Shown piece by piece: positions 15,758 to 64,000 of a stretch of DNA of 64,000 nucleotides. This DNA comes from Boswellia sacra (taxonomy: Eukaryota > Streptophyta > Magnoliopsida > Sapindales > Burseraceae), in the NCBI GenBank assembly GCA_013180625.2, contig SNVD02002439.1, positions 1-64,000 on the forward strand. The letters are read 5' to 3'. The translations under genes were made by a program, and so were the position numbers. Below the pieces are notes generated by a model, which was not told where the DNA came from, made no database searches, and saw only the letters and a program-made list of their open reading frames with translations. Every line of letters starts with the position of its first letter. Position 1 is the first letter of the stretch.

Positions 15758-18581
15758 TCATCCCCCGTCATGAAGTGGAATTGGGTTTCGACAAGTTTGA
15801 CGATTGTGCCCGAAACTTCCACATCGCCAGCAAGTTCGAGACGAGCTAGACTCACTAACGGAAGGGAGTCGATTCCTCCGAGGACGATCGGCTAGTCTCC
15901 TCATGACTGGTGGTAGAACCACTCTGCTGCGAACCTCCTCAAGAACCACCCAATCCTCACTAACCCCAACAAGAACAACTGGCAGAGCATATGCATGTAG
16001 TAATGTTTCAGTCGTATACCAATGGGCATAATAATCATGGCACGTCAGTAGATTCATACGTTTACAAACAGCTAATACATCTGCATACGGAAGCTAGTCA
16101 AGATCAAACACCTGACACGTGCATGTACGAGCGTGCATGTCAACGATGCTAACACGGTCGTTGCCTCTAACCTCATACATAGTAAGAGAGATACCACTAA
16201 CCCTCATACGTTCTTCCTCCTTTAAACGCTGCTCCATCAACTTGTTAGCCCACGGTGAGAGATGTAATTCCGAGTTAGCAAATAACTGTCGACGCTTATA
16301 GAACCATTATTGCAAGTTGGCCCAATAATAATCTGCTAACAATGTCACCGGGAGGAATCGATGGTGTCGTAAGTAGCTGTTTATCGACTCAACTATATTT
16401 GTTGTCATGATATTATACCGTCGACCATGAAACTGTGAACATGCCCATTTCTCGACTCCAATCTCTCGAAGATAAGTTACAGCTGCTGGCATATACGATT
16501 CAATTTGTCACATATGATAGTTGAAATCAACACAGTAATATGTCCTTGCAGCTCGGTAGTACATCTCCAACAATGTCTTGTCCTTGAAAGTTGCCTTCAA
16601 GTTATCCTTCAGGTGATGAGTGCACAATCCATGCAGTGCATGAGGGAAAACTGCTACAATAGCTCGTTCAATGCTACGATGACCGTCAAAAATGAAAACA
16701 AGATCTAGGACATTTTGTACAACATGATCATGCAACTGTCTCATGAACCAATTCCACGAGTCATCATTTTCAGAATGCCCAACTCCAAATGCCAAGGGGT
16801 ATATTTGTTTATTTCTATCCATACAAGAAGCCAAAAACATTGTACCTCTATATTTCCCTTTCAAATAAGAACTATCAACTGCCATAACTGGCCTTATTGA
16901 TTATGGAAATCCAGCAATAGAGGTCCCCATACTCATGAAAAAGTATCTAAAATGGTTGTTGTCATCGATTTCTAAAGAAGTTTTCGTCCTCGGGTTTGCT
17001 TTCTCAATCATGTACATGTACTGGGGGAGTAGTGTGAATGATTCCTCATGCGATCCATGAAGCTCTTGCAAAGCTGCCTCCTCCATACCTTGTTGTATGT
17101 GATATTAACACCCAATGACTCCTAAACATCAGACATAATATTCTTTGGATGATATATTCTCGATGCCTCAACGAATTTGCTCTTAATATGTTTGCCAATG
17201 ACATGTGCAGTTGCCTGTTTGTGATTTGGGTGAAGTCAGGCTCCGGACCAGGTGTGATGGTTCTTATACTTTTTCACTTGGAAGAAATGTGAATCGGCTA
17301 CTTTTATGGCACGTAAACGCCATTTACAAGATTCAGCACGGCAGACAACCTCAAACCTTGTTGCATCGGAGTTCCTCACCTTGAATTGAAAGTTTCGTCT
17401 TAGTGCAAAATTCGATAACTTCTCGCGAAGCTCCGTTTTTTTGTTAAACATCCATCCAACCCCAACCTCAATCCCGTCAACTACAAACTATGAAGCATCA
17501 TCGCCATCTTTTGATGATGAATGCATAATAGGCAACATCCACCTGAATGTGTTAGCCCGACGACTGTCATTCTCAGAGCCTAAATTAGCTTCTTCATGTC
17601 TACGATTTGCATCCATTCTCAGCTCATTATTCGACACCGGATCTTGCTGATGTCTGTATAGTGGAAGAGTAGGTGCGTTTTGAATTGGAGAAGGAACGGT
17701 AAACGGTACATCCTAGTTCACATCATTCAAGATCTCCGTCTGTTCATTATTATCAAAATGTGAACCGTCTACATCCTGACCATCAACAATAAAATCATCC
17801 AAACCCTCAACATCGTTCTCATTACGAATAGTACAATCGTCATTGTCATCGTCAACATGCTCACTAACATGATCACTACCATCATCATTATCTTCGTAAT
17901 CTTCATCACCACCATCGTCATCATTAACACCATCACTAGCATTACTAACATTAATATTACCTAAACTCTCAAACTCTCTAATGCTATCAAGATGACATAC
18001 CAATCTCGGTGGCATCGACGGGGGCACCCTTTTTCATTTTCAACTAAGATCCCAACTGACTCATGCCCTGCATGCCCTGAATACTGCTCAAACTCAATGC
18101 CAACGTCATCATTCAATTGTGGTTGTGCACAAACAGGAGTGGACTCACTTAATTGGTTGCTTCCACTTGCTAAGCGAAACATAGAGGGATGAGAAGATCT
18201 TTGTCACCTACATACTACATCAAATCCTGACCTCTGTCTTCTCTTCTCCCTATCTTCAACTTTGACAGTTAACGGTGTATATGACTGTTGGTCCTTCAAA
18301 CAATGTTGTATAAAGAAACAAACATCGTTGTCAGTCTCAATAGGAGTCGGCATTGGCGGAAGACCCTTAAAAGCAAATTGAACCTCTAAACTTATGTTAT
18401 GCCTACGAAGATCCCAACCCATTTCAGTACTAATACAGTCAACCAACTCATTATAGGTAGCAGACCTACGAATTATTAATGGCTTCGCCCTCCCACCGGT
18501 GTATAAATAACCACCATTCTCTTGCATAGTCCAAGAACTATTGCATAGAATAAGTATGCGTAAAGTTTCCATTTCCTGCAT
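15758..18581 (-). pseudogene. MuDR-type transposase, decayed
   Basis: Read on the minus strand: an N-terminal PB1/ubiquitin-like segment (18560-18204, WTMQENGGYLYTGGRAKPL); an acidic Asp-rich linker (18027-17713); a MuDR DNA-binding domain (17451-17236, FQFKVRNSDATRFEVVCRA, then CKWRLRAIK); the MULE transposase core (16900-16508, MAVDSSYLKGKYRGTMFLA, FIFDGHRSIERA, HGLCTHHLKDN); the NIVESINSYL segment (about 16405); and a C-terminal CCHC zinc knuckle (CWRCGSFGHNRQTC, about 15835). Acidic residues at the DDE positions are visible. In-frame stops occur after HTWSGA, after NIMSDV and after TSIAGFP, with a frameshift near 17090, so this copy cannot make a full transposase. Confidence 0.88.
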
Positions 18582-34139: not shown

Positions 34140-35880
34140 ATGTCCATGGGAATCAATCCACAGAAGGCATGGATCTTGTTCATAGATGGGTCATCTAACA
34201 AGATTGGTAGTGGAGCTGGCTTGATTCTATCAACCCCGGATGGAGTAGAGGTAGCTGTGGCACTACGTTTCAATTTTAAAGCCACAAATAATGTCGCAGA
34301 GTATGAAGCTCTCCTTGGAGGACTTAGGCTGGCAGTTGCCTTGGGGGTAGGAGAGATCGTCATCCACAGCGATTCCCAACTTGTGGTTAACCAAATTCGT
34401 GGAGACTATTAGGCAAAAGGCTCTACCATGATAGCTTACTTGGGTAGAGTTAACTCCCTTCTGCGCGGTTTTAAAGGTTTCGACATCGTAAGAGTCCCAA
34501 GGGTGGAGAATTCAAAGGCTGACAGTTTAGCCAGAATTGCTTCAGGAATAGACCCCCTTCTACGGACCGCCTATCACATGGTCGTTCTAGAATCGCCAAG
34601 CATATCACAACATGAGCTTCCGCCAGAGAAGACAATGACCATAAATGGTAGACTTTGCTGGATGGACCCTATCATAAAGTTCTTAGAAACGGGGGAACTT
34701 CCAGCTAACCAAAACGATGCGATCAAGGTAAAAGGGAAAGCGTCAAGGTACACTATGGTCAATGGTGTTCTTTACAAAAGAGGGTTCAGCCTTCCTCTTT
34801 TAAAATGTCTTCGCCCAGAAGAAGCTGATTATGTTCTCAGAGAAATCCACGAGGGGATATGTGGTAACCATTCTGGTGGTCGATCTCTAGCTCATAAGTG
34901 TATCAGGCAAGGATACTATTGGCCAACCATGAAAAATGATGCCAAAACATTTTCAACTAGGTGCAACAAGTGCCAAAGGTTTCCCAACATTCCAAGGAAA
35001 GCTCCTGAGAACATGACTCCAATGACAGCCCCATGGCCGTTTGCCCAATGGGGACTAGACCTTATTGGACCTCTTCCAATGGGTAAAGGTCAAGTTAAAT
35101 ATGCTGTTGTGACAATTGATTACTTCACTAAGTGGGCCGAAGCTGAGCCCCTCGCATCGATTACTGAAAGGAAGACCACGGACTTCGTAAGGAAGTCAAT
35201 TGTCTATAGGTTTGGTATCCCTCATACCATCATTACGGACAATGACAAGCAATTCGACAACTCCAACTTCAGGAACTTTTGTAAGGAGCTGAACATCTCT
35301 TTGTGCTTTTCATCTCCAGCTCATCCTCAAGCAAACGGTCAGGTGGAGGCTGTTAACAAAACCATTAAACACCTCCTCAAGACCAAATTAGATGCTAGGA
35401 AAGGTGTATGGCCAGAAGAGCTTCCACAAGTGCTCTGGGCATACTGAACCACTGTCCATACAGCAACAGGCGTAACCCCATACTCCTTGGCGTTTGGCTC
35501 AGAAGCAGTTATACCTGTTGAAATTGGCCTTCTATCACCTCGTACTGAGGGATATGACGAAGAGCTTAATCATAGAAGCCTTTAACTCAACCTAGATCTT
35601 CTTGAGGAGAAAAGGGATCTCACTAGTGTCAAGGTTGCTGCTTACCAAGAGAGGGTTGCTCGATATTTCAACTCTAAAGTCAAGCGCCGATCTTTCCAAG
35701 AGGGAGACTTGGTTTTGAGACAGGTACTACAAAGTACCCGAGATCCCACTGATGGAGCATTGGGGCCCAACTGGAAGGGTCCGTATCAAGTCAAGGCAGT
35801 CATCCGACCAGGCACCTACAGACTGGTCACCATGGATGGGAGGTCGCTCGTCATCCATGGAATATTGAGCACTTAAAGAA
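34140..35880 (+). pseudogene. Second RNase H and integrase, Gypsy element 1
   Basis: A second, archaeal-type RNase H (WILFIDGSSNKIGSGAGLIL, NVAEYEALLGGLRLA, HSDSQLVVNQI) follows the first, the Tat hallmark. Integrase has the HHCC zinc finger (HEGICGNHSG ... CNKCQRF) and DDE core (GLDLIGPLP, IITDNDKQFDN, ANGQVEAVNK). The usual DNG at the second Asp is DND. In-frame stops occur at 34410, 35445 and about 35585. The C-terminal part with GPNWKGPYQVKAV ends near 35880. Confidence 0.9.
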
Positions 35881-44151: not shown

Positions 44152-45531
44152 TGATGCGTTCGAAACTAGCAAGTATACTAGTCGCACAAGTAATAAAGTG
44201 ATAAGTAAGATATCGTTCCCACGAGGATTGATTCTAATTGAATTTGTTATTTCCAGCAACAATTAACTAAATGGGGGGTTTTTGTTGAATGATTAACTAA
44301 ATAAAATAAGAATGCAAATTAAGAATAACAAAACAGAAAGTTAATTTGAATGAAAAATCAATGAGAGAAATCTGGTTAAGGGATCCTTCTCTACCACAAG
44401 ATATGGATTTGCGAATTAATCGTAGAATTGTCATCCAATTACAGCATTGAAGTTATCAACCGTAGATAACAACAAGCTCTGTTATCCCAATCTTTCCTTA
44501 CTTTGTTGTTAAATAAAACAGGCTCTTTATTTAAGCTCTATCCATTAAACAACCTAGAACAAGCTCTCTAAATTTAATTCAATGGATGCATTATGATAAG
44601 AAAGATAGGTTGATCTAAGCAATAAACACACAAGCTCGGATTATTTAACTTAGTTTGTATTCTCCAATTGCAATCTCTGATCACAATTTTGCTACTAATT
44701 AGAAATTAAGACAATTCATCAAGATTGGCAACAACCAGATTATATTCAGATTAATACAATCCAGCAAGCAATCATAAGCATTAGATATAGGAAAATACAA
44801 GCAAATTCAATTAGAGAATTGGATAACAACTTCTTGCACAATCAACTTACAAAAACCATATCAGGGGCTTTGAAATCACCCTCAACCAATTCAGATTCAG
44901 TTACACATGTTTAAGAACGTGGTAAATACAATACAACATGGAGACATTCCAGAAAATGAAAGGGAAGGGAAAAACTTAGCAAATTTGATGTAATTCTCTT
45001 TGGATTGTAGTTCTTCCTCTTTCCAAGCTTCCTTTCTCCTTCAAGAACTCCAGAGATGAAAGAATTCCAGAGCTGCAGCCTCCACCACGTTCTCCCCTCT
45101 TCAAGTTATCAAAATAAAACCCTAAAATGTGTTTAAATACTCTGCTACAGTGAATTGCTACAGTGCCCCGTATTATACATGCTACAGTGATTGTGGAATT
45201 ACATTTCTATACTTCTCACACTGTTTTGATTACAACTTTTGGTACACTGAATGGATTTATAAACCGTAAATTTCTCCAGAAAATAGACTTCGAGAGCTTT
45301 CCAACGGTATATAATATGTCATCGGGTTCATTGTATATCAATACAATTAAATCCGAGAAGATGGTTGACTAGCAGAGGTGAAAATGAAGGGTTTTACTCC
45401 ATTTTTGTGCAAGTTGCTCCAAAACTCCTACAAACATCAAAACCACACAAAAACATAAAAATACCAAGGAATATAGCAAAGAAACATGGACGAATTGATA
45501 TGAAAAGTAATACATAAATAGACACCTATCA
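44152..45531 (-). repeat. 3' LTR (copy B)
   Basis: 1,380 bp, bounded by TGATGCGTTCGAAAC and CACCTATCA (TGAT...ATCA inverted ends). Near-identical in arrangement to 581-1987 and 62173-63579. Confidence 0.9.
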
Positions 45532-45548
45532 AATTCCCCCACACTTAG
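45532..45548 (-). other. Polypurine tract (copy B)
   Basis: On the minus strand AAGTGTGGGGGAATT lies immediately before the LTR start TGATAGGTG. The same site occurs at 63580-63596 in copy C. It fixes the element orientation as minus and the 44152-45531 repeat as the 3' LTR. Confidence 0.8.
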
Positions 45549-47502
45549 ACTTTGCTAGTCCTCGAGCAACTAAAATGATACGAAACAAAACTAAACCGAA
45601 ACAGAATCAAAGAAAAATTAAAACACACAAATGCTTCAACTTGCAAATAGGCCTCAAAGATTGTACTTAATTATAACCCAAGGAAAACTTCAAAATAATG
45701 CACTTGATCAAGAATTTTATCTCAAAGATTAGTTTCGCTTCACTTCAATTCCTCAAGTGTGTGTGTGTAGAGCCATTCTCACCTAATCACTTGTAACCCA
45801 GATGAGTTTATGCATAAAAATGAATCATATTTAATATTGAAGATGTGTGTATAAATGAACTCCATAGGCCTGCTTTTCAAGTCACTCTCCACTAATGTAG
45901 ACATGCACAACACCAAGGATCAAGTAGGACTTTATTAAGCTTGTAACGTTTGGCTTGGGTGAAGGTATGATAAAGGATAATAATTTGGCTCAAATCACCC
46001 ACAAACACATAAATCATTCAAGACTATGTAGAGCTCAACCCTATAACACAACTTCATTTCAATTCACCAGGTTACTCCCCCAAACTTATTTAGAACACTC
46101 AATCTTTTTTTTTTTTTTTGCAGAAAACAAAAGAAAACTACACCCCCACACTTTGTTGTTTCATTCTTTTTAAGAACACTTAAGGGTATAGATCTCTTAT
46201 TCTTCTTCTTTTTTTCTTTTTTTTCTTTTTTTTTTTATTACACTTCCCCTCCCCCACACTTAAACAACACATTGTCCTCAATGTGTAAGTACGTGGACGA
46301 TAAGTACAGATTGGTTTTTTTTTCTGTTTTTCTTTTTTTTTTTAAAACACAATAGAACTCACTTGTATTGCTCATGACACATCCCAACCTCCTCTAACTT
46401 CCCAAAACCAGAACATAGCTCAAAATTTAATTGTGAACGATCTACATGCTCATAGGTAAGGGATAAACTGTTTGGAATAAATTCATTTGAGGTTAGGAAA
46501 TCTTTTAGTGAGTTAACAAAGAAAAAGGCTTACAAAGGCTCAAAGGGGTAACTAGGGATCAATTTCAGTCAAGGTTGGCTATTAAGGCTCAAACGGTCCA
46601 AAGATGGCCTAAATCATTTCCCCAATGTTGCACAGTCTAGGATTTCGCCTCGAGTGACCATCAAACAAGTTCTAGAATTCATTGAAATCTGAAGAAACAT
46701 TTAAATTACATAAACTTTCTCTAAGTGAACAAATAACTCAGTGATAATAGCTCAGTGCTCAATGTTGCGCAAGGAATCAAAAGCAAAGCGAAAACCAATA
46801 AACATTTCAAGCACACAGATCCATGCATCATTTATCATTTTCCAAGAGTTATTCTTAATTCAATCATTATCTTATCATCGACCCACAAAATGCAAGAAAA
46901 GAGGTACGTGGCGTTGTTACACCTGAGTCAAGATTGTATATTTCAACAATCCTTAGGACCAGTAGCCCGCAGACTTAAGGTTTCCAGCCTATATACCTTT
47001 ATTATGAAAGAACAAAACAAGAAACAAGACACTTCAAATAACATGAAATAAACAAACTACAGATTTATTTAGAGAGAATGCGTTTCAAGGGTTAAAGAAA
47101 CCCCATATTCTGCCATTCTCAGGTTTTTCCACAATTGTTTTTTTTTTAAATCAAAACTGATAAAGATAAAAACACATAACAACTCTAAATTACGCAAAAC
47201 TAAACTCACTCATAAAATAACAAAGTTCAACAAGTCAGCAAACAAAAACAAGTTAGTTAGAATGGGTCTACAAAGTTTAGAAGTTAGCCTCCTTATTCAG
47301 CCATTATGGATTGAAGAGATCCAGAATGCGTTTCAAGAGAACTTGAACTTTTTAAGCCACCACTCTAAAAACCGAGATTAGAAAATATTACCTGGGACGA
47401 AAGAAATAACCTGAAAAAGCTCAAAAGAAACGACATGAAAAATCTCAAATAAACACACTAAAAAGAAAGCAAACAAAAACGAAGCAAACCAGCAAATAGA
47501 GA
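45549..47502 (-). other. 3' non-coding region of the Athila-like element
   Basis: Non-coding, with poly-pyrimidine runs (46105-46120, 46200-46240, 46315-46340). 45549-45960 is shared with 63597-64000 of copy C, showing that it belongs to the element. It contains the phrase CACACTTAAACAACACATTG, then TCCTCAATGTG, a stretch I associate with 3' regions of plant Athila/Tat elements. No credible ORF. Confidence 0.65.
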
Positions 47503-48165
47503 TTACAGATGGAGGGTTAAATCCAGTTGAAGCCTTTTGTTGCCTTCTCCAAACCAATTTATCCGAGCCATTGTTGGATCAGGTGAATAGACGAATTCTT
47601 GTAGTTTGTCAATTAACTCTCCTGCAGTTGAAGCTGTAACCAGCATTTGCCTTGCTGACGGTGAGATGAAATTTTTTTCTACAGCTTGATCAAGAAAGGA
47701 CAACAAACCATCAAAAAAATTATTAACATTTAACAAACCAATGGGTTTCCGATGGATGTTTAGCTGTGCCCAAGAGGTGATTTGAAATATCTCCTCTAAT
47801 GTACCATAACCACCCGGCAAAGCTATAAATGCATCGGACTTAACAACCATATGTGCAATACGCTCATGCATGCTAGAGACCTGTAACTCTTCCCCGATTG
47901 TGTTGCCTACGATATCTCGTACAGCTAATGGTTTAGGGATAATGCCGAGAACTTTGCTCCCTCCTTTGCTCCCTCCTAGGGAGGCAGCTGTTGACACACA
48001 CCCCATTAACCCAAGACTACCCCCTCCATAAATCAAATTAATACCCCTCGCAGCTAATGTCCTACCAAGATCAAGAGCTGCTGTGGTAAACTCTCCATCT
48101 TTACCAAATTGCGATCCGCAAAATACGCATATATTGCGGAATCGCCGAATTGGTGTTTTCTCCAT
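47503..48165 (-). CDS. LOG: Cytokinin riboside 5'-monophosphate phosphoribohydrolase (LOG), intronless
   Basis: LOG enzymes release active cytokinin base and ribose 5-phosphate from cytokinin ribotides in the cytosol, the direct activation step. The 220-residue frame spans the whole family length: ICVFCGSQFGK (12-22), INLIYGGGSLGLMG (42-55), the conserved Arg in SMHERIAHM (R102) and the signature PGGYGTLEE (117-125), then WAQLNIHRKPIGLLNV and ISPSAR. Oddities: GGSKGGSK (64-71) is a 12-bp tandem duplication, and the usual RKAEM after MHQ/E is RIAHM, so one substrate-side Lys is Ile. The C-terminus (LDLTLHL) resembles plant LOGs and not bacterial ones. Plant LOG genes normally have several introns; this one has none and lies inside an Athila-like element in the same orientation. 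No stops or frameshifts. Expression and activity are unknown. Confidence 0.93.
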   Translation of the reverse strand: MEKTPIRRFRNICVFCGSQFGKDGEFTTAALDLGRTLAARGINLIYGGGSLGLMGCVSTAASLGGSKGGSKVLGIIPKPLAVRDIVGNTIGEELQVSSMHERIAHMVVKSDAFIALPGGYGTLEEIFQITSWAQLNIHRKPIGLLNVNNFFDGLLSFLDQAVEKNFISPSARQMLVTASTAGELIDKLQEFVYSPDPTMARINWFGEGNKRLQLDLTLHL

Positions 48166-48299
48166 TTCTACAAGTGCTCTAATCTTGTGTAAGACACGTT
48201 AGATATTATGCTTTTCAATTGCAAGACAGGTTATGGAATGACATATGAAAATATGCAGAATGTATATATACACCCATAAAACTCTCAAATTTTGACACA

Positions 48300-48550
48300 T
48301 GGGGACATACTTTCGGTGGGGGTTGCTCGATGCAGATTTATCGCCCCAAGATTTGAAAAAATGAGATATGCTTTCGGCGAGGTTTGACAAAACCTACACA
48401 CTTGTCTCCCACGTGAAGCATGGAAAATGGAGATACACTTTCGGCGGGGGTTGACAAAACCCCCACACTTGTCTCCCACGTGAAGCATAAAAAATAGAGA
48501 TACACTTTCGGTGGAGGTTGACAAAACCTCCACACTTGTCTCCCACGTGT
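48300..48550 (-). promoter_or_regulatory. Four tandem ~67-bp units with hairpins; three carry G-boxes
   Basis: Units start at CTTTCGG at 48310, 48371, 48438 and 48505 (spacing 61, 67, 67). Units 2-4 each carry the palindromic G-box CACGTG (48410-48415, 48477-48482, 48544-48549). Each of these also has a short hairpin around GACA(A): AGGTTT/AAACCT, GGGGGTT/AACCCCC and GTGGAGGTT/AACCTCCAC. Stem changes are matched on both arms. The array lies 130-385 bp upstream of the LOG start codon. G-boxes are bHLH/bZIP sites in plant promoters; use as a LOG promoter is inference. Confidence 0.7.
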
Positions 48551-48775
48551 ACTTAGCCATAGGGTAGTCATATGGTTTGTCAAAAAGAAAACTTGAAATT
48601 AAAACAAACAAAATCAACAAACAACAACAACACAAAAACAACATTGATAATCAGATCAAACGAAACAAGAAAAAAAAAATTCTACAACAACAACACACAT
48701 TCAAATATACAAGTAGTTGTGATTGTGGCTCACATCTTCCTCTGGTTTTACGTCCAGTAACGGCTGAAACGCCTT

Positions 48776-49330
48776 CTATGAGTCGGGGATTTGCTTCCCA
48801 TCCAGTTTTCTTATAAACTGGCAAACAGGGTCGTTTTTAGTCAGATTCCCTAGACTATAACACTGCAATTCATCACGAAATTGTGTCCATAGATTAAGCA
48901 ATTCACGCTGAACAAGTCCACAAGAATGTGACTCGAGAGTTAACAAAACATTATCCAGCGACTCATTACTCAAACCATTCTTAATAAATGAAAGTTTATC
49001 TTCTCTATTCCTGGACGCAAAACCTAATGAACGACAAGTCTGGTTACAATTCCATCTAGCACATTTATAACATACTTGTAACCTTTTCGCTCTTCGCCTC
49101 TTGGCGTAGTAGCTCTTTCCTAGACCAGGCATGTATTTTGCGAGATTAATGTCCGGCTCACCGGACAATCTCACCTTGGCTTCGATAAGCCATCGGATAT
49201 CAGCAGGCACATTTAGGAGCATCAACGCCCAAAGTCTAGTCATCCGTACTTTATAAATTTTAAACACAGCATTTTGAGGAAGTGAAGGGAAATATTTACG
49301 AAGGTTCGACAGAAAGATATCGGCATCCAT
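48776..49330 (-). CDS. Basic zinc-finger protein of unknown function (184 aa), flexivirus CRP-like pattern
   Basis: I chose the start at 49330 (MDADIFLSNL); the open frame continues 22 codons further upstream to 49396. The middle holds a basic run and a Cys cluster: GLGKSYYAKRRRAKRLQ (69-85), then C87-X2-C90-X4-C95-X3-C99, then EDKLSFIKNG (110-119). Gly-Lys/Arg-Ser, a basic RRR run, a Cys cluster and a downstream FIKNG-type motif in this order recall the small cysteine-rich nucleic-acid-binding proteins (some of them silencing suppressors) of carla- and vitiviruses. The C-terminal 85 residues match nothing I know. An upstream frame (INRIIGNSS ...) ends at 49296, overlapping this start by 35 nt. 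The ORF lies in the same orientation as LOG. Alternatives: a host zinc-finger fragment or a lineage-specific element gene. It is open throughout. Confidence 0.5.
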   Translation of the reverse strand: MDADIFLSNLRKYFPSLPQNAVFKIYKVRMTRLWALMLLNVPADIRWLIEAKVRLSGEPDINLAKYMPGLGKSYYAKRRRAKRLQVCYKCARWNCNQTCRSLGFASRNREDKLSFIKNGLSNESLDNVLLTLESHSCGLVQRELLNLWTQFRDELQCYSLGNLTKNDPVCQFIRKLDGKQIPDS

Positions 49331-49344
49331 TGAAGAGGAGAAAA

Positions 49345-49640
49345 GGAGAGCTATTACCGATAATGCGATTGATTTGTTTTTCTCCAAGATATGCACGTTT
49401 CAAACCTTCGGCAATGACTTCAGCTCCCGTTTGGATGTTTCCTCAAGCTGTTGCACAAATGAGCTCAAAGCACAGAATAATCAAATTAAACAAAAGAAAG
49501 GAAAAGAAAAGAGCAGAAACGAAACTAAAGACACATAAAAGAGATAACAACACAATAGCAAACAAAAGTCAAAAACAAGTAAAAAATATAAAAACAAATA
49601 AGACAGATGGCAAAGAGAGATAAAACCTGATCAATTTGAT
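49345..49640 (-). other. Transition zone upstream of the zinc-finger ORF
   Basis: The minus strand reads a pyrimidine-rich stretch (49620-49490), then a short coding-like piece: VQQLEETSKRELKSLPK in one frame and EGLKRAYLGEKQINRIIG in another. The first resembles the ELKPLP spacer upstream of Gypsy RT and the second the end of some upstream coding sequence. I cannot decide which is real. Confidence 0.35.
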
Positions 49641-49771
49641 GGCCTACGAAAGGAATCTCCTCGAGACACAAAAATCGATCATTATTACCTCATTTTATTT
49701 TTCTTTTCTTCTTTTTTTTATTTATTCAAAAACATTGGGTTGCCTCCCAATAAGCGCTTGGTTTAACGTCC

Positions 49772-50194
49772 TCAGCCCGACGTTGGTTCCATCATGGGAG
49801 GATCCAATCTTCGCTGTGCTTCTCTAGTGGGCTTGGATCCTTTTTCCAACAAGATACGGTCCATGCATATGGCTGGGCCTTGGATGTCAACAATCGTCCA
49901 CCCAATAGCTGTTTTGTGATCTCTAAGTACTCGGACGAGTTTCTCTTCTTGTAGTGGTGCAAGGCCCATTTCTATTTTAACTGGCAAAGGATCATTCTTA
50001 TCCAAGAATCCATGCTTCAAATGATCTGGAAGAGGCTTAAGCTCCAAGGTAGAGGCTTTCATCATAGAAGGTAGAAGTTTCACATTAGATAAAGGAAATT
50101 GAATGCACGAAACATCATACCTATTTGTGGCTATAGCTATGGTCTCATCTAAGCTTGCCACAGCTTCCTCCATTTCTTTGGACACTTGTATCAA
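49772..50194 (-). pseudogene. Gypsy pol fragment (upstream of RT), Athila-like
   Basis: 140 open codons with LELKPLPDHLKHGFLDKNDP, KLVRVLRDHKTAIGWTIVD, CMDRILLEKGSKPTREAQRR and LDPPMME. This is the conserved linker just before the RT domain in Athila/Tat-type polyproteins. After PPMME, where RT should begin, the sequence switches to element non-coding DNA (PTSG, stop). RT, RNase H and integrase are therefore deleted at this junction. This fragment gives the lineage call for all three copies. Confidence 0.85.
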
Positions 50195-51640
50195 CCTTCT
50201 TGATTGTTAATTATTCTAATTTAGAATAAAAAATTTAATTTGAATTTATGAATTTTACATTAAATTATAAAATTAAATATTTACATTAAATAAATTTTAA
50301 TTAAATAATTAAAATGATTAATTGTGTATTTATGTATATACAAATTTAGTTAAATAATTTTCATCTTTTTCATAATTAAAAAATTTAAATTTATTACAAT
50401 TTAGAATAATTATTAATTTGAATTTATGAATTTTTATTTTTAATTAAAAATTTTTATGATTTTGATTGTTAATTATTCTAATTTAGAATAAAAAATTTAA
50501 TACATTGTAATAGAATCTTTTACCAAACATAGTATTATTTAACATTTATATAATACATGACAAATCACATACAATATAGAGTTTACTCTATCCTATGCAA
50601 TACAATTCAATATAATGCTATCTAATGCAATCCAAGTTATACTATTTTATATGGTGCATCAAACATGTCTTTAATTAATTAAACTCTTTTAATTAATTAC
50701 CAAGCCTCAATATACAAAAAGTCCATGGCATGTCTAAGTAAGTAACCAAACTCGTAAGAACAAGCCCAACTTTGCTTTAGATCATATTTCTTAGTTCAAT
50801 CCAAATCCAATTTCATTAAACAGCTATACAAGGGATTTTAATGGACGTATTTAATTATAAGCATCAATGAACTAAGTCCAGTACTCTATTATCTCATATT
50901 CTAGTGAGTCGTATTCATTAACACTAGCCTATTCTACTATAGACTCAAGAGCCGCACTCTTGAATTAAATACTACTTAAAAAAAAACTTAATAATTTAAT
51001 CTGATTAAATTTTTCCATAAGCTCATCCATCGAGTAAAAAGTTTACATTAATATCCTTATAGAATACCAATAATTAGAGCTAAAGAATTACTATTTTATC
51101 CCTCCAATTACAATTCCTTAAGACCAATTTTACACAATTTAAATGATCTAAGATTTAATAGAATTAAATCTTAATTTAATGAACTAGTTCTATTAAATAC
51201 TTGTCCAAGATTCATCATCTAAAACCTCATAAAAGCCTCAAAATGGTATTCCTTAAACCTTTCTATGTCATGAATTACATATCTATGGTATAGTGTTAAT
51301 TTACTACATTAAAATATGGGTCATTCTACAATACCTCAACTAACGAATACATCATTTTTATCATTAACATATAAAAATTGTAAATGAGTATATAAAATTT
51401 GTAAATAGTTAATAAAACTTGAAAGTCACATTTACAACTTTTATATATCTCATTTACAACTTTTATACGAATTCATATTCAAAACAACAAAATTTTTATT
51501 TGAATTACAATTTTTATATCTATATCGATATATCAGTGCCTCAAATGTACCATAGCGAAACCTATAAAGAAAACCTTTTTATTACTTTCTGTGGATGGTA
51601 TTTTGTGAATTCACCTAGAGAGACCAAAATAACCTCCTAA
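50195..51640. other. AT-rich DNA without genes
   Basis: Very AT-rich. A 40-bp direct repeat (TTGATTGTTAATTATTCTAA, then TTTAGAATAAAAAATTTAAT) occurs at about 50200-50240 and 50462-50501, the first copy touching the truncated end of Athila copy B. Confidence 0.55.
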
Positions 51641-52928: not shown

Positions 52929-54317
52929 ATGGATGGTGTGGAGGCTAGTGTCACCAATAGCTTGCAGCCAGCTGCTGGGTCCAAGAAGACCAGGCAGGTC
53001 ATGACGAGACAAGCCACTCAAAACCAAAGAATTGAGGGTATAGAAGTTGAATTGAGAAGCCTCAAGGAGGATAATGCTCAACTAAAAAAAATGCTGAATG
53101 AGTTGATAAGAAAAGTAAAGACTCCAAACACAAACCCAAATACAACACTTAACCAAACTGACCCCATTACTCAGCCCGCACCTAACCAACAACTTATGCT
53201 TTTGGCTCCAACACCCAACTGTGGATTCTATATTGAAGGTCCTAGTCGATACCCTCCCCAAAATGTTGACCAAACACAATTTCAAGCCATGGGCATGGAA
53301 GGCCCGAACCAACACCCTAATCCAAACCAAGCAACAAATTTGGGAGGTCCTGCTCCAAGAGAGGGGAGAAAGGAGCCTGATTGTCAAAGTCACACTACAA
53401 TCTCTAGGCCTCATGCAAATACTCCACCTAGAGACCAGTTAGGGAACCCTAATCAACAAGTGGGAGGACATCACTCGAGGCCTGAAATCCATTCCCACCA
53501 CTACAATAGAATAACTCGCTTTGAGCATGGGGGACATGATGGTTATCAAACCAGAAATCGTGAGCCAAAAAACCACAACTACTGGGTGGAGAATCATGAA
53601 CTTGATAGGCATTACAATTGTTGCTCAGAAGGGTATAATATCCATCACAATACGAGAGAACGTCCACTTACCAAACAAGAGTTAGAGCTTAGAGAACTAA
53701 AACGAGAGATGGCTCTTCTCAAACAAGCACAATCAGTGGGAAATCCTAGCTTTATACCTGAGTTCAATTTGAGCTCACCTTTTATAGAAGTAATAGCAAA
53801 ATGCCCTTTCCCTCCCAACTTTACCTTGCCGACCTTGAATTCTTACGATGGTCAGAAAGACCCCCTTGAACACTTGAAAACTTTTAACGCATGTATGGCT
53901 GTGTACAATCTTAGTGATGCTATGTCTTGTAAAGTTGTCTCGCTCACACTTACAGGACCAACGAGACAATGGTTTAGATCTTTGGAGATGAACTCCATAA
54001 CCACTTTCCAACACTTCTGTGACCAATTCCTGAGTTATTTTAGGGCATCAAGGAATATCCGTAAACATAGCCACGTGTTGGGAAATGTTAAGCAAAAGGA
54101 GGGGGAGTCCACATTAGAATATGTCAATCGCTACCATAGTGAGGTGACAAGTTTGGGGACCTTTAAGGATTCCACTACCTTGAGTTCCTTTATGAATGGA
54201 CTCAAGCCTAATAGGATTTGGAGATACTTGTCTGATTTTTCAGCCACTAGTTATGAGGAAGCTTATTATGTTGCCCTAAACATGGCTAGAACAAGATGGA
54301 CAACCTACCAAATCTAA
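52929..54317 (+). CDS. Gag polyprotein, N-terminal and capsid part, Gypsy element 2
   Basis: 462 open codons beginning MDGVEASVTNSLQPA. There is an N-terminal coiled coil (IEGIEVELRSLKEDNAQLKK), a long Asn/Pro/Gln-rich linker (residues 60-240) and a second coil (TKQELELRELKREMALLKQA). The retrotransposon gag domain follows, about residues 285-450: FTLPTLNSYDGQKDPLEHLK, GPTRQWFRSLEMNSI, VKQKEGESTLEYVNRYHSE, SFMNGLKPNR. It ends in a frameshift (RTRWTTYQI, stop), after which gag continues in other frames. Confidence 0.85.
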   Translation: MDGVEASVTNSLQPAAGSKKTRQVMTRQATQNQRIEGIEVELRSLKEDNAQLKKMLNELIRKVKTPNTNPNTTLNQTDPITQPAPNQQLMLLAPTPNCGFYIEGPSRYPPQNVDQTQFQAMGMEGPNQHPNPNQATNLGGPAPREGRKEPDCQSHTTISRPHANTPPRDQLGNPNQQVGGHHSRPEIHSHHYNRITRFEHGGHDGYQTRNREPKNHNYWVENHELDRHYNCCSEGYNIHHNTRERPLTKQELELRELKREMALLKQAQSVGNPSFIPEFNLSSPFIEVIAKCPFPPNFTLPTLNSYDGQKDPLEHLKTFNACMAVYNLSDAMSCKVVSLTLTGPTRQWFRSLEMNSITTFQHFCDQFLSYFRASRNIRKHSHVLGNVKQKEGESTLEYVNRYHSEVTSLGTFKDSTTLSSFMNGLKPNRIWRYLSDFSATSYEEAYYVALNMARTRWTTYQI

Positions 54318-55600
54318 ACAAGATCATCCCAAGAATAGGCAATTCACCGAGAGGCGACCATCAAGTCCAAGACAAACAGAACCTCAATTGGAATACAAAA
54401 GATCCCAACCCCAACCACTTCCAAGGAGACTTGAAGTTCATTAGGCTGATAACTATAGGTCAGCCAACTATCAAGCAAACAATTATAGAGCAGGTCAGTG
54501 TCCGGAAGTGAGTCGCCAAGATTATAAGCCGCGCACGAAGTTCCCTGATTACACAGCCCTCAATTGCACAAGGAATGAGATCTTTGTAGCAATGCACATA
54601 TCAGGCTTGTTTAGAAAACTAAGACCCATCAAAACAGAACCTGCAAGGCTAGACCGATCTAAGTATTGCGACTTTCATGAAAACTTCGAGCACAATACAA
54701 TGGATTGCTATGAATTGCGAGATTAAATTGAAGAGTTGGCTAGGGTTGGAGAGTTATAGGAGTTCATTGAGCAAGTCCGTGAAGCTTACAAATATAGGGC
54801 AATCAGAGACGGCAAAAGACCTATGCATATGGAGAGTGATGTAAATGAACAACCCAAGGTCTAGAGGATAACCACTATTTCAGGTGGAGCCAATCGAACT
54901 AAGGACTCCAATAATTCAAGGAAGAACTACGCGAGAAGGTTTGATAAGGAGATTTTTATGGCTAGTTCAAGTAGAAGGTCAACTACGATTCATGCCCCAA
55001 TCATATTCTCAGATGACGATACTAGGGGGTGTAGTTCATCCAGATGAAGATGCACTGGTGGTTACAATGATGATCGCTAATTTTGAATGCCAAAGGATTT
55101 TGATAGACACAGGTAGCTCTGTTAATGTTCTATATAAGGATGCCTTTGATAGGATGGGGCTCAAGGAGTCACAGTTACGCCCGATCCAAACTCCGTTAGT
55201 AGGATTTGCTGGAGAAAGAGTCAACTCTCTAGGATCTATTTATCTATCTATCAAGGTAGTAGATGGAAGACTCCAAACAACCATTATGATAAAATTCATT
55301 ATTGCTGATAGGCCAAGTGCCTATAACGTGATATTAGGAAGACCATTCTTATATGAGACAAAGGCAGTAATTTCAATTTACTATCAAAGGTTGAAGATTC
55401 AAACGAGTGATGGAGTTGGGATCATGGCCAGTGACCAACAAGCCTCTAGAGATTATTATGAGGTGTCTGTCAAACCATGCCATATGGTTGTTGGGACTTT
55501 AACCGATGATCGGCCTAGTTTGATAACTACTGGATCTCCTACAAGAAGTGATGAAGAGGCACGTGGTGAATTAGATCCTCGAGATAGGAGGTATGAATAA
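54318..55600 (+). pseudogene. Gag zinc knuckle and aspartic protease, Gypsy element 2
   Basis: In a second frame a knuckle-like CDFHENFEHNTMDCYELRD (about 54667-54726) is followed by stops. In a third frame from about 55025 the protease reads ILIDTGSSVNVLYKDAFDRM, with the canonical DTGSS, then ILGRPFLYE. At least two frameshifts lie between capsid and protease. Confidence 0.8.
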
Positions 55601-55639
55601 CGGGCTGAATCGTTTGAAGAAATGAAGCACTACAACTGA

Positions 55640-56453
55640 AGTTACAAGATCTGTTGACAGATTATAGAGATGTCTTTACATGGGGAGCCATGATGACATG
55701 CCAGGCATCAACCCATCATTGATTTGTCACCGTTTGAATATCGACCCAGAAATGAAGCCGATTAGGCAGAAGAGGCGAGCTTATGATGCAACACATTATG
55801 AGGCAATGACAATTAAGGTAGATAAACTTCTGCAAGCCAATTTCATTCGAGAAGCTAATTACCCTAGTTGGCTGGCTAACCCTGTTTTTATGCAACCTAA
55901 TGGTAAGTGGAGAATGTGTATAGATTTCACTGACCTAAACAAAGCCTGCCCCAAGGATAGTTTTCCACTACCAAGAATAGACCAACTTGTGGATGCCACA
56001 GCAGGCCATGAGTTAATGAGTTTCATGGACGCTTTTTTCGATTACAATCAGATCAAGATGTACCTACCGGATGAAGAGAAAACTGCATTTGTTACAAATC
56101 GGGGGTTACATTGTTACAAGGTCATGCCATTTGGCCTTAAAAATGTTGGAGCTACCTATCAAAGACTTGTGAACAAGCTCTTCAAAGAGAAAATTAGCAA
56201 GAACATGGAAGTCTATGTTGATGACATGCTGACCAAGTCCACTATCGCAGAGGAGCACGTTGAAGACTTAAAGCAAACATTTGAAGTATTGAGAAGGCAT
56301 CACATGAAGTTAAACTTAGAGAAGTGTGCCTTTAGAGTGTCGGCCGAGAAGTTCTTGGGTTTCATGGTAAGCCAAAGAGGCATTGAAGCCAACCCAGATA
56401 AGATTCAAGCCATTTGTAACATGGAATCCCCTCAGACACTAAAACAGGTGTAG
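55640..56453 (+). pseudogene. Reverse transcriptase, Gypsy element 2
   Basis: MCIDFTDLNKACPKDSFPLP, FMDAFFDYNQIKMY, MPFGLKNVGATYQ and the catalytic YVDDML are present. A frameshift near 55685 separates it from the protease side, and an in-frame TAG at 56451-56453 ends it. The sequence carries on in the same frame afterwards, so this is a single nonsense change. Confidence 0.9.
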
Positions 56454-58857
56454 ATACTAACAGGAAGGTTGGCAGCCCTGAGTCAGTTCATTTCAAGGGC
56501 CACGGATAAGTCACACCCTTTTTTCAAAGCAATGAGGCAAGGAAAGAAGATGCAATGGACAACTGAATGTGAGGTTGCGTTTCAACAGTTGAAGAATTAC
56601 TTGGCAAGTTCTCCACTTCTCTCGACGCCTCAACAGGGTGAGACCCTATATATATACTTAGCTGTTTCTGCGACTGCTGTAAGTTCGGTGTTGGTTCGCG
56701 AGTCTAAAGGAATTCAGAAACCTATTTATTACGCCAGCAAGTCTCTTGTAGATGCAGAAACCTGTTACTCAACACTAGAGAAATTAGCTCTTGCTTTAGT
56801 AGTTTCGTCTAGAAAGCTCAGGCCTTACTTCCAAGCCCATTCAATTTGTGTAGTCACTGATCAACCTTTGAAGCAAATCTTACAAAAGCCTGAACTTTCA
56901 GGTCGCCTAACAAAATGGAGCATTGAGATAAGCGAATTTGACATCACTTTCTCTCCTAAAAATGCAATCAAAGCTCAAGCAGTCACCGAATTCATAGCTA
57001 AATTCACCAACTGCTTAGAGGGGTGTGATGATGGTATACTATTACTAAGGCAAGAAAGTGATATACCCCAACAAAATGTAAAAGCATCAGACAAACAAAA
57101 CTCTCAATCCATGAACGATCAAGAGATAGCAAGCTGGACATTGTATGTTGATGGAAGTAGTAATGAGAAGGGCAGTAGAGCAGGAGTTGTCTTGGTAAGC
57201 CCAAAAAACACAGAACTTTGTTATGCTCTAAAGTTTGGTTTTAAGGCTTCCAACAATGAAGCAGAATATGAGGCAGGTTTAGCTGGAATGAGACTAGCAA
57301 AAAACTTAGAAGTTGAAAAACTGATCCTCAAAAGTGATTCACAAGTGGTTGTAAGTCATGTGAATTCAGAATACCAAGCTAAGGGGAACAACATGATAGC
57401 TTATCTCCAAAGGGTCAATGAATTGAAGAAGCACTTCAAAGAATTAAAAGTAGAGAGAATCCCACGAGAAGAGAACCTACAAGCTGACTTTCTAGCTAAG
57501 CTAGCATCCTCTGCTGAAATCAAAATGTCTAAGATAGTCCCACTAGAGTTTATCCCGAAATCGAGCATTCATCTTGACGATGCCATCTTTGAGGTAAAAG
57601 CGATGAATCAATCTCCAAGTTGGATGGACCGCATCCTAGCTTATCTCACAACAGGTGAGCTCCCAAATGACAAATTGGCGGCGAGGAAGCTTAAATATCA
57701 AGCTGCTAGGTATTCTCTAATTGATGATGTCTTGTACAAACGGGGTTATTCAATGCCTTATGTAAGGTGTCTCAATTATGAAGATGCTAACTACGTGTTG
57801 AGAGAAATCCATGAAAAAGTATGTGGAAACCATTCCGGAGCGAAGAGCTTAGCTTTTAAAGTTTTGAGGCAGGGTTATTACTGGCCTACCATGCATGCAG
57901 ATACAAAGGCCTTTATAAGGGATTGTGACAAGTGTCAACAGTTTGTAAATATACCCAGACAACCACCTGAGAAGCTTACCTCATTAAGTAGCCGTTGGCC
58001 ATTTGCTCAATGGGATATAGACTTAATTGGCCCTCTTCCAACGTCTAAAGGCCAAGTGAAATTTGCAATAGTAGTTGTTGATTATTTCACCAAATGGGTT
58101 GAAGCCGAACCATTGGCGGCCATCACTGAAAAGAAGACCACAAACTTCATTTGGAGATCTCTTATTTGTAGGTTTGGGATTCCACATACTATAATCACTG
58201 ATAATGGCAGACAGTTTGACAATGCCAACCTTAAGGAACTTTGTGAGCAGCTTGGCATCCATTATAAATTCTTATCAGCAGCTCACCCTCAAGCTAACAG
58301 GCAAGTGGAAGCAGTTAATAAGGAGATAAAGCATTTACTCAAAACCAAGCTAGAAGCACACAAGGGGGCTTGGGCTGAAGAGTTTCACAAAGTCTTATGG
58401 GCTTACAGAACCACCCCTAGATCCACAACAGGAGAAACCCCTTACTCTTTATCTTTTGGGGTGGAAGCTGTAGTTCCAATTGAAGTAGGAATGCCCAACC
58501 TTCGAAGAATTGCTCACGATCCAGAGGCTAATTCAAAACAGCTTAGAATATGTTTGGATTTGGTTGAAGAGGAGCGAGACATGGCACAAGTTAGATTGGC
58601 AGCTTACCAACAAAGGGTGGCCAAGTTCTACAATTCTAGAGTTAAGGCAAGAAAGTTTGAAGTTGGAGACTTGGTTCTAAGGAAGGTAATGTTGAACATG
58701 CAGGAACCGAGAGTTGGAGTCTGAAGACCCAACTGGGAAGGCCCATACCGAGTAGAGCAAGTTCTTGGCTCGAGGGCTTATCGCCTGCTTCGAATGGATG
58801 GGACTAAAGTTAGGCACCCTTGGAATGCTGAACACTTGAAGAAATATTATCAATGAG
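56454..58857 (+). pseudogene. RNase H, second RNase H and integrase, Gypsy element 2
   Basis: The longest open stretch of the window (751 codons, 56469-58724). First RNase H: IYLAVSATAVSSVLVRES, ETCYSTLEKLALALV, KWSIEISEFDI. Second RNase H: WTLYVDGSSNEKGSRAGVVL, NNEAEYEAGLAGMRLAK, KSDSQVVVSHV. Integrase: HEKVCGNHSG ... CDKCQQF zinc finger, DIDLIGPLP, IITDNGRQFDN, ANRQVEAVNKE (DDE complete, the usual Gly before QVEAVN is Arg). A TGA at 58722-58724 precedes the last segment (RPNWEGPYRVEQV to about 58857). Confidence 0.92.
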
Positions 58858-59897: not shown

Positions 59898-62172
59898 CTA
59901 AGCTGGAGGTGTGGTGCCTTGAGAGATTGTCTTACTACCCTTAGTAAACCTTTGTGCAATAGCGCTGAAGTCTACATCAGGGTAATCCTTCTCCAAGCCT
60001 TCAATGATAGTATCTACAGCATAGGCGGTCATCTCATGGACTTCTGAATCCAACTCAACAATCTCCACCTCCTTAGCCTCACTTGACTTTCTCTCCTCAG
60101 CTAGTTCTATCTCCTTCTTTTCAAGATGCTTCTTTAGATCTTTATTCTCAGCTTCCATCACTTACAGGGAAGACTTGAGGCTGTCTTTCTCCTCAAGTAT
60201 TTATTTCTTCATAGAATCATATTCTTTTTGTTCCTCTCTCAAAGTCTCAGCTTCGTTTAAAGCAGCTCTAATATCTTCATAATGTTGAGCCACTATATTG
60301 ACACCCTGCAAAAGCTAAAATAATTAGTGATTGTGTAAAGAGAAATAAAGGCTTAGCTGCTTGAACTTACCATGATGTGACTCACAAAGGACAACTCAAA
60401 TGCTGTCTTTGTTTTGAAGTTCTCGGTGCTCCTAGCTACATCCTTTGAGAGAACTCGAGAAGAAGCTTGAACGTAAGGAAGAAGATGTTTAGCTTCAGCG
60501 AGACTCTCAGTTTGAAATGAAGGGGGGCCGTCAAAAAGGGATAACCCCCTAAATGTCTGGTCAAGAGGTGCAAGGAAATTCTTCATCTTTTCACCAGGAA
60601 GGAAAGTCTTAGGAACTTTCTCAGTCACATTTGCATGAACTATTGCTATTCTATCCTTGGGAGGAACTCCCTTGGATTTATGAGCCATATGCTTCACCTT
60701 TGGTCTTTTTTCCAATGCCTTATTGGTCACTTGGGTCATAGCAGATATGGATGCACTAGCTTTCAGTTCACGCTTCCTCTTTGCTCTTAAAGTCTCAGCC
60801 AAAGCAACACTGTCAACTTTCTTGCTCATTTTGTCTACACCTATAAAAGAAATTGAAGGCAGGATAAGTTTAAATTAATAATGATGATAAAAGGGAAACT
60901 AGAAAGCCTAAAAGGTGAGGTGACTACCAAATTGGACTTCAGTTCAGCTACTAGTATTCATCACCAAATTGAGGTTCAAATCAATCAACTTCATTCAAAA
61001 GTTCAACTTTTATTTTTGGTCACAAAACTGATTCAATGTAAAATCACAAGTAAAAAATGTAACTTCAAAAGTGAAATCCTCTCCACCGTCCGAGTCCTCT
61101 AAATCCTCTATTTCTGGAAAATGGGAGATGAGTCTACTTCTTTTTACTCCTTTTGGATCAATTAATTTCTTAATGTTACGATCTTGGTACTCAAGAGCTG
61201 CATTCAACCTATTCTTGTATACCTCAGAAAGCTTAGTCTTCCTGATATACCCTACCAAAAGAAAAATAATAATGATGAGAAAAGCAATAATAGTAATAAT
61301 AATAATGATAATAAAAAAGATAGAAAAGCGAATATAAGTTGAAGAACTTACGGGGCATCCTAAACTCCGTTGGGGTTTTAGTAGCAATGGAAACAGATGT
61401 AGTATCCCATTCACCACCAACATAAAACCACCTAGTTTTCCACCCTTTTTTGGGGAAGGGGCTCCCATAGAATACTCTTGCCATCGGAGCCATAAATTCT
61501 AGGTCTCAATGCTAAAGTGTACCATCCTATTCTGGTGTCGGTCGAATTTGAGATGCAAAATAAGTAGAAAATTTCATCTAGGGTAATCTCGGTCTTATTA
61601 ACCATCTTCCAAAGATGATACAAAGCTAAAAGAATCATCCATCCATTGGGATTCAGCTAACTGAGGGCTAACTTGGTGTATTTGAAGAAATTGGCAAAGC
61701 ATGGTTGGAGACGAAGTCTAGCCCCATATTTGAAAAACAAAGTATAAAAGAGTACCTCACCATGTCTATACTCAATCCCTTTGAGTTTAAAGGTAGCCCT
61801 TGTGGTTATGTTGCTAGGAATTTTATACTCTCTACGGTACTTGGCTACACAAACACAATCGATCGAGCTGGGTAGCTCATCTATAGCAAATCCCTCAAAG
61901 TTGGGATCTTCTGGGTCTCTACAACGTGGGTGTTTCAAATTTGACACGCTTTCTTCCATCAAAGATGCTTGATCACCATTATCATCTCACTAGCCTCGCT
62001 ACCTTCACTAGCACTTATTTCAGCTTGGGGATCACTATCATGCTTGAAAGGTTCGATGGTCTCACCAACCTCCCAAACGTCCACATCAACCGAGGGAACA
62101 CCCGTACCCAATTCAGGGTCAATAGACTGCGGGAGATCCCGAGTCATCCCGTTAGGATCTGTTTCACCAAGT
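59898..62172 (-). pseudogene. Antisense Transposase_28-type gene in Gypsy element 2, truncated
   Basis: Minus-strand blocks: 61962-61657 (FEGFAIDELPSSID, YRHGEVLFYTLFFKYGARLR); 61650-61330 (NGWMILLALYHLWKMVNKTE, then RWFYVGGEWD in a shifted frame), resembling the PF04195 region of the counterpart in Gypsy element 1; about 61240-61050; 60829-60353 (Lys/Arg-rich, TLRAKRKRELKASASISAM); and 60161-59898, a coiled coil (DLKKHLEKKEIELAEERK). Order and orientation match 38461-36223. The 5' part is cut off by the Athila-like LTR at 62173. At least one frameshift lies near 61440. Confidence 0.65.
61262..61320. repeat. (AAT)n-like microsatellite
   Basis: Imperfect AATAATAAT / GATAATAAT repeats within an intron-like stretch of the antisense gene. 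Confidence 0.8.
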
Positions 62173-63579
62173 GATGCGTTCAAAACTAGCAAGTATACTA
62201 GTCGCATAAGTAATAAAGTGATAAGTAAGATATCGTTTCCACGAGGATTGATTCTAATTGAATTTGTTATTTCCAGCAACAATTAACTAAATGGGGGGTT
62301 TTGTTGTTTGATTAACTAGATGAAAAACTGAATACGACGGTAATTAATGAATAACACAATCCAAACTTAATTGAAATGGGAATTAATCAATGATAGAAAT
62401 CTGGTCAAGGGATCATTCTCCACCACAAGATATGGATTTGCGAATTAATTGTAGAATTATCATCCAATTACACCATTAAAATTATCAACCGTAGATAACA
62501 ACAAGCTCTGTTATCCCAATCTTTCCTTACTTTGTTGTTAAATAAAACAAGCTCTTTATTTAATTTCTATCCATTAAACAACCTAGAACAAGCTCTCTGA
62601 GTTTAATTCAATGGATGCATTATGATAAGAAAGATAGGTTGATCTAAGCAATAAAACACACAAGCTCGGATTATTTAACTTAGGTTATATTCTCCAATTG
62701 TAATCTCTGATCACAATTTTGCTACTAATAATTAGAAATTCAAGACAATTACGGATCAAGATTTCTAATATAGCAATAGACAATATCCAGATTATATTCA
62801 GTTGGCCACCCAAATACAATCAGCAAATAATCATAAGCATTAAACCTGGGAAAATACAAGCAACTTCAATTAGAGAATTGGATAATAACTTCTTGCACAA
62901 TCAACTAACAAACACCATATCAAGGGCTTTGAAATCACCTCAACCAATTCAGATTTAGTTACACATATCCAGACACAAAACAAATGCAATACAATATGGA
63001 GACATTCCAAAAATGAAAGGGAAAGGGAAAACTTAGCAAATTTGATGAAAATCTTTTAAGATTGTAGTTCTTCCTCTTTCAAGCCTTCTTTCTCCTTCAA
63101 GAACTCCAAGGGATGAGAGAAATCCAGAAGATGCTGCCTCCTCCACGTTCCCCCTCTTCAAGTTATTCAAATAAAACCCTAAAATGTGTTTATATACTCT
63201 GCTACAGTAACCTGCTACAGTGTCCCGTATTATACATGCTACAGTGATTTGTGGAATTACATTTCTATACTTCTCACACTGTTTTGATTACAACTTTTGG
63301 TACACTGAATGGATTTATAAACCGTAAATTTCTCCAGAAAATAGACTTCGAGAGCTTTCCAACGGTATATAATATGTCATCGGGTTCATTGTATATCAAT
63401 ACAATTAAATCCGAGAAGATGGTTGACTAGCAGAGGTGAAAATGAAGGGTTTTACTCATTTTTGTGCAAGTTGCTCCAAAACTCCTCACATCAAACCCAC
63501 ACAAAAACATAAAAATACGAAGGATTAGCAAAGAAAGATAGATGAATGGTATGACATGATACAGAATAGACACCTACCA
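62173..63579 (-). repeat. 3' LTR (copy C)
   Basis: 1,407 bp, TGATGCG ... CACCTACCA, aligned along its length with 44152-45531 and 581-1987. The right terminus has ACCA where copy B has ATCA. Confidence 0.9.
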
Positions 63580-64000
63580 AATTCCTCCACACTTAAACTT
63601 TGCTAGTCCTCGAGCAACTACGACGATATGAAACAAAACTAAATCGAAACATATTCAAAGAAAAAAATTAAAACACACATGTTTTAGCTTGCAAATGGGC
63701 CTCAAAGATTGTACTTAATTATAACCCAAGGAAAACTTCAAAATAATGCACTTGATCAAGAATTTTATCCGAAAGATTAGTTTCGCTTCACTTCAATTCC
63801 TCAAGCGTGTGTGTGTAGAGCCATTCTCACCTGATCACTTGTAACCGATGAGTTTATGTATAAAAATGAATCATATTTAATAGTGAAAATGTGCGTATAA
63901 ATGAACTCCATAGGCTTGCTTTTCAAGTCACTCTCCACTAATGTGACAAGCACAACACTAAAGATCAAGTAGGGCTTTATTAAGCTTGTAACGTTTGGCT
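63580..64000 (-). other. Polypurine tract and 3' non-coding region (copy C)
   Basis: Matches 45532-45960 of copy B (AATTCCTCCACACTTAAACTTTGC against AATTCCCCCACACTTAGACTTTGC). No ORF. Confidence 0.75.

Follow-up and report, generated by a model that had tools for sequence, protein, structure and literature searches.

The window, as we call the whole 64,000-nucleotide stretch of Boswellia sacra DNA analysed here, carries on its minus strand part of an LTR retrotransposon in which two extra sense genes lie between a pol fragment and the 3' LTR. Its features are as follows.

44152..45531, minus: 3' LTR (TG...CA)
45532..47502, minus: 3' non-coding region (~2 kb) with a polypurine tract at its end (about 45532-45546)
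47503..48165, minus: LOG-type phosphoribohydrolase gene of 220 codons, intact and without an intron, with Pfam, NCBIfam and AtLOG3 matches
48166..48775, minus: spacer between the LOG and NABP-like ORFs, also present in other copies, with 67-bp tandem repeats at 48356-48549
48776..49330, minus: NABP-like ORF, 184 codons from ATG, matching Pfam Viral_NABP and Carla_C4
49395..49771, minus: post-pol region with the phrase GGGAGGCAACCCA, shared by 8 of 10 oriented copies
49772..50194, minus: pol fragment, the linker preceding RT; RT-RNase H-integrase is deleted as in other short-class copies

The two genes between pol and the LTR

The initial annotation had described a full-length, intronless LOG gene of 220 codons, bracketed by a pol fragment on one side and by the 3' region, polypurine tract and LTR on the other, all on the minus strand; this arrangement was recovered in full. 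The product of the ORF at 47503-48165 carries the PGGYGTLEE motif and matches Pfam Lysine_decarbox (2.9e-38). With 173.6 bits against NCBIfam TIGR00730 (cut-off 96.35), the PGGxGTxxE motif, and the catalytic Arg and Glu, it belongs to the LOG / TIGR00730 family, and Arabidopsis LOG3 (2a33) aligned to it over residues 7-204 with 227.7 bits. The sole length difference from AtLOG3 is four residues, produced by a 12-bp in-frame tandem duplication (47952-47977) that is missing from the 648-bp LOG copies examined, so no intron is left in the element gene. This absence is notable because most LOG genes of peanut are reported to have 7 exons (PMC13257298, consulted in part). Capture at the RNA level is not the only route to such a gene; since the element replicates through RNA, an intron captured with the DNA could have been spliced later from the element transcript.

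Shuffling 45540-50200 by mononucleotides 300 times (minus strand, three frames) gave stop-free stretches of at most 143 codons. A neutral-survival estimate for the ORFs was set aside because it depends on an assumed indel rate. Modelled singly, neither of the two proteins gave a good structure (mean pLDDT 49.3 and 36.0), and Rfam gave nothing at gathering scores. Viral contigs searched with LOG yielded one unconfirmed pattern match.

The ORF at 48776-49330 had been overlooked in the initial annotation. Its product matches the Pfam families of flexivirus nucleic-acid-binding proteins, namely Viral_NABP (1.7e-10, 41.7 bits, Pfam cut-off 23) and Carla_C4 (3.2e-5, 24.3 bits, cut-off 20.9), and has four cysteines adjoined by a basic stretch. 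A variant from another copy (L004) scored 35.3 and 24.2 against the same two families. No relatives of the NABP-like protein were found in the viral contigs searched.

Most other element genes in the window had been called broken, which fits the ORF list. Further LTR copies lie at 584-1988 and 62172-63580. The former belongs to a further family copy at 1-1988 whose internal region is nearly all deleted, leaving the LTR, a PBS-like stretch, fewer than 300 internal bases, and part of a second LTR. The latter is a third family LTR that, followed by the beginning of its 3' region, leaves the window (62172-64000) and is 89.7% identical to 44152-45955 over the matching stretch. Another Ty3/gypsy element occupies 52929-58724 on the plus strand and has gag, protease, RNase H, and integrase matches in broken frames, and a related integrase is found at 34428-35447. 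An ORF at 2849-3265 matches the ORC2 RecA-like domain (E 1.3e-17) and is perhaps an exon or gene fragment, while DUF1985 and MULE transposase matches at 12205-12612 and 16508-16885 are traces of DNA transposons.

Copies of the element across the genome

The initial annotation had proposed a search of the host genome for other LOG-carrying copies. We searched the 638.6 Mb assembly (7,431 contigs) and scored the best 150 of 14,732 first-look candidates, and all 150 LOG matches were 95–100% identical. The copy number is thus at least 150, with the caveat that ranking by LOG similarity favours intact copies; an internal stop was present in six rows among the LOG matches listed. The order NABP, spacer, LOG was kept in 20/20 top loci, the window copy included. 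In eight of these 20 the NABP frame was open from its ATG without a stop. Among 20 lower-ranked copies, NABP was reached in 19, the remaining one lying at a contig end, and was without stops and frameshifts in 5 of the 19. Searching the assembly at DNA level with 301 bases of the 3' region gave no match, which carries no weight because such a search passes over very common words.

Ten copies were retrieved with flanks for anatomy. Three form a long class with ~2.65 kb between the pol linker and the post-pol region (L027, L029, L037), and four (L025, L031, L035, L039) make up a short class, in which the linker is joined straight to the post-pol region, as in the window copy; the other three (L021, L023, L033) were assigned to neither class. 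Adjacent copies include one long at L030 and one short at L026. The short class, window copy included, shares one common deletion of RT-RH-INT, and the L037 relative of 49772-50194 continues into RT. Short copies would presumably depend on other copies. In eight of the ten larger copies, LOG is succeeded by the 3' region and then by an LTR in the same orientation. The exceptions are L023, which stops ~290 bases past LOG, and L029, which breaks at ~1.4 kb where an inverted LTR interrupts.

The hallmarks of a Ty3/gypsy element (LTRs, PBS, gag, protease, RT, RNase H, integrase) are all present but spread over copies, with protease and RT (1.3e-29) matched in L027, RNase H and integrase in L037, and gag in L035; the frames of these three are broken, and gag-pol was split into several ORFs in 3/3 copies with ORFs listed. 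LTR pairs and a PBS were found in L025, L031, L035, and L039, the PBS TGGCGCCGTTGCCGGGGA following the 5' LTR exactly in the first three and with one difference in L039. We take this PBS to be of the Athila tRNA-Asp type and the phrase GGGAGGCAACCCA to be typical of Athila-type elements, and both features would fit an Athila-like label. LTR-pair divergence of 0.020 (L025), 0.015 (L035), and 0.040 (L039) suggests fairly recent insertions, no rate being applied. The L031 LTR pair (K2P 0.16) was not accepted as one clean element.

The copies are mosaic. Their 3' and LTR blocks switch between ~80% and 100% identity (8 sequences, 28 pairs; 11 aligned), and the stretch from mid-NABP to LOG is 95–100% identical between copies. 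As copies were picked by LOG, a high-identity block near LOG is partly expected, which does not hold for the switches elsewhere. Among six LOG alleles dS is 0.11–0.22, yet the adjoining spacer differs by 0.5–6%. In L053, a strongly divergent NABP (dN 0.24) stands beside a nearly identical LOG. L015 likewise has a divergent NABP adjoining a near-identical LOG. Sequence comparison of these two copies suggests exchange between element lineages near the NABP-LOG border, and we read the mosaics as probable products of template switching between co-packaged RNAs or of gene conversion.

Selection, function and rival readings

One divergent element (L028, G000:C4637:5718-14717, complement) keeps the same NABP-LOG order, with amino-acid identity of 65% for LOG and 67% for NABP, one stop in LOG, and two in NABP. 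Compared with an open copy, its LOG gave dN/dS 0.22 (bootstrap 0.12–0.33) at dS 1.12, and its NABP 0.21 (0.13–0.33) at dS 1.05. Among the six LOG alleles the ratio was 0.08–0.12. These values, well below 1, answer the dN/dS check that had been proposed for LOG, and the ratios point to purifying selection on both genes between element families. When pooled, the 20 lower-ranked copies gave a ratio of 0.20 for LOG, which is biased by the ranking, and of 0.47 for NABP, which was unranked. Two copies met by proximity only (L026, L022) gave 0.18 and 0.26 for LOG, both LOGs being broken. The 19 top-ranked LOG copies (11 DNA-identical, the rest with 1–2 synonymous changes, no nonsynonymous change) were left out of the selection evidence because of ranking bias. 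Our reading is that element lineages were probably under long selection, followed by decay of single copies after insertion.

In CgLOG, Arg99 and Glu122 are proposed to be catalytic and Met96, His97, Lys100, Glu125, and Trp129 to form the prenyl pocket, which is identical in AtLOG3 (PMC4979012, in the part available). Of 40 element LOG rows, two of which (L016 and L037) are one copy, 39 keep the catalytic Arg and all 40 have the two motif Glu. The commonest element form retains the pocket Met, His, and Trp and differs from CgLOG and AtLOG3 in two pocket residues, Lys100 -> Ile and Glu125 -> Gln (CgLOG numbering). The NCBIfam cytokinin LOG equivalog scored 113.1 bits, below its cut-off of 300. 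The element LOG is likely an active phosphoribohydrolase. With its catalytic residues kept but two residues of the substrate pocket changed, it is a candidate cytokinin activator at most. Wheat LOGs with the known residues are reported nonetheless to differ in product (PMC11593424, seen in part).

We consider it probable that the window copy belongs, as a truncated and non-autonomous member, to an Athila-like family of LTR retrotransposons with high copy number, and that the two extra sense genes which this family carries downstream of pol, ahead of the 3' LTR, are kept because they benefit the element. Both genes would have been acquired, LOG from a plant, while the NABP-like gene would share ancestry with flexivirus genes, and both would have been retained for the element's benefit. 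In cells transcribing the element, LOG would most likely liberate either active cytokinin or some related base, favouring cell division or meristem competence, and the NABP-like protein would protect element RNA or dampen silencing. The copies, the linkage in 20/20 top and 19/20 lower-ranked loci, the element domains, the presence of both genes in a divergent family, the low dN/dS, the kept catalytic residues, and the silencing suppression reported for viral cysteine-rich proteins of this type (PMC12172455) support this explanation. It is weakened by the Lys -> Ile and Glu -> Gln changes with the low equivalog score, by NABP being intact in 5/19 lower-ranked and open in 8/20 top copies with a pooled ratio of 0.47, and by LOG being broken in both proximity copies and interrupted by a stop in the divergent L028; the intactness of LOG is itself biased, since copies were ranked by LOG similarity. 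A more elaborate version, tentative and rather doubtful at present, is that the lineage carries a selected two-gene module for host manipulation, in which a silencing-suppressor-type protein and a hormone-activating enzyme, joined since the two families split and exchanged by recombination, let the element multiply through cell division and blunted silencing, much like some plant viruses.

Three other explanations were weighed. An intact ORF amid broken elements is what a conserved host LOG gene would look like if an element had inserted into or around it, but we regard this as extremely improbable: 150/150 scored matches are near-identical, which makes LOG part of the element rather than a host gene that an element surrounds, and the constant gene order in 20/20 top loci and the common 3' region and LTR behind LOG in 8/10 larger copies place it within the element. 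This reading was rejected on these three grounds. Improbable to a lesser degree is that the element picked up LOG and the NABP-like ORF a single time and has replicated them as passengers ever since, with no benefit to itself. Broken NABP frames in the majority of single copies, and broken LOG frames in the two copies met by proximity only, are as this would have it, but the ratios between families at dS ~1 (0.22 for LOG, 0.21 for NABP), and those of 0.08–0.12 among the six LOG alleles, speak against it.

Somewhat less unlikely than either is that the enzyme is an active phosphoribohydrolase that would act on other nucleoside monophosphates rather than activate cytokinin, for instance altering nucleotide pools during reverse transcription. 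The two pocket replacements and the low equivalog score would fit such a substrate, while the kept catalytic Arg and Glu and the pocket Met, His, and Trp weigh the other way.

Relation to known systems

Extra ORFs are reported to be common in plant retrotransposons, their function mostly not known (PMC7264820, in part). The element LOG belongs to an enzyme family that can be assayed by an established method, and the NABP-like protein resembles virus proteins for which silencing assays are established; with purifying selection between element families, the role of extra ORFs for a retrotransposon becomes directly testable. The findings also hint that retrotransposons and RNA viruses may have shared genes, and they advise caution with LOG-like sequences tallied in plant genomes, which may be element-borne.

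The abstract of Steinbauerova et al. (2011) reportedly names two Athila-like elements that resemble LOGL4. That plant Gypsy elements can carry LOG has been published before: in the part available, a screen of 121 angiosperm genomes reports Gypsy consensuses with a YgdH (LOG) domain from two Citrus species, and a Populus trichocarpa Gypsy with YgdH seen only without that screen's filter, a finding said to agree with, and credited to, Steinbauerova 2011 (PMC9289625). A paper on the Populus sex region held nothing on LOG. What is added here is the virus-like partner gene, together with signs that the two genes have been under selection. Nothing on point was found in the open-licence literature for retrotransposons bearing a Viral_NABP or carlavirus-type gene, nor in the available part of a survey on endogenous RNA viruses of plants (PMC3136472). 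The NABP partner of LOG is thus new relative to open-licence literature without its supplements, which does not prove it new.

The element LOG shares with plant LOG proteins such as AtLOG3 (2a33) the alignment over residues 7-204, PGGxGTxxE, and the catalytic Arg and Glu, and differs in its lack of introns and its replaced pocket Lys and Glu. As described in the part available, the Citrus sinensis, C. clementina, and Populus trichocarpa elements have in common with ours a LOG-type gene in plant Ty3/gypsy and several consensus sequences within one species; the NABP-like ORF, the dN/dS values, and the deleted class are what is described here in addition, the comparison resting on the YgdH domain description (PMC9289625). 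An endogenous flexivirus sequence in cucumber is likewise flexivirus-like sequence within a plant genome, but that case is a replicase, whereas the Boswellia sacra case is a small 3'-type gene of a multiplying element (PMC3136472, in part). The cysteine-rich nucleic-acid-binding proteins of carlaviruses and mandariviruses, reported in the accessible text as silencing suppressors and pathogenicity factors, share Viral_NABP and Carla_C4 and a basic stretch by four cysteines with the NABP-like protein (PMC12172455). Unlike them, the NABP-like ORF is encoded by a retrotransposon and adjoins LOG, silencing suppression being reported for the virus side.
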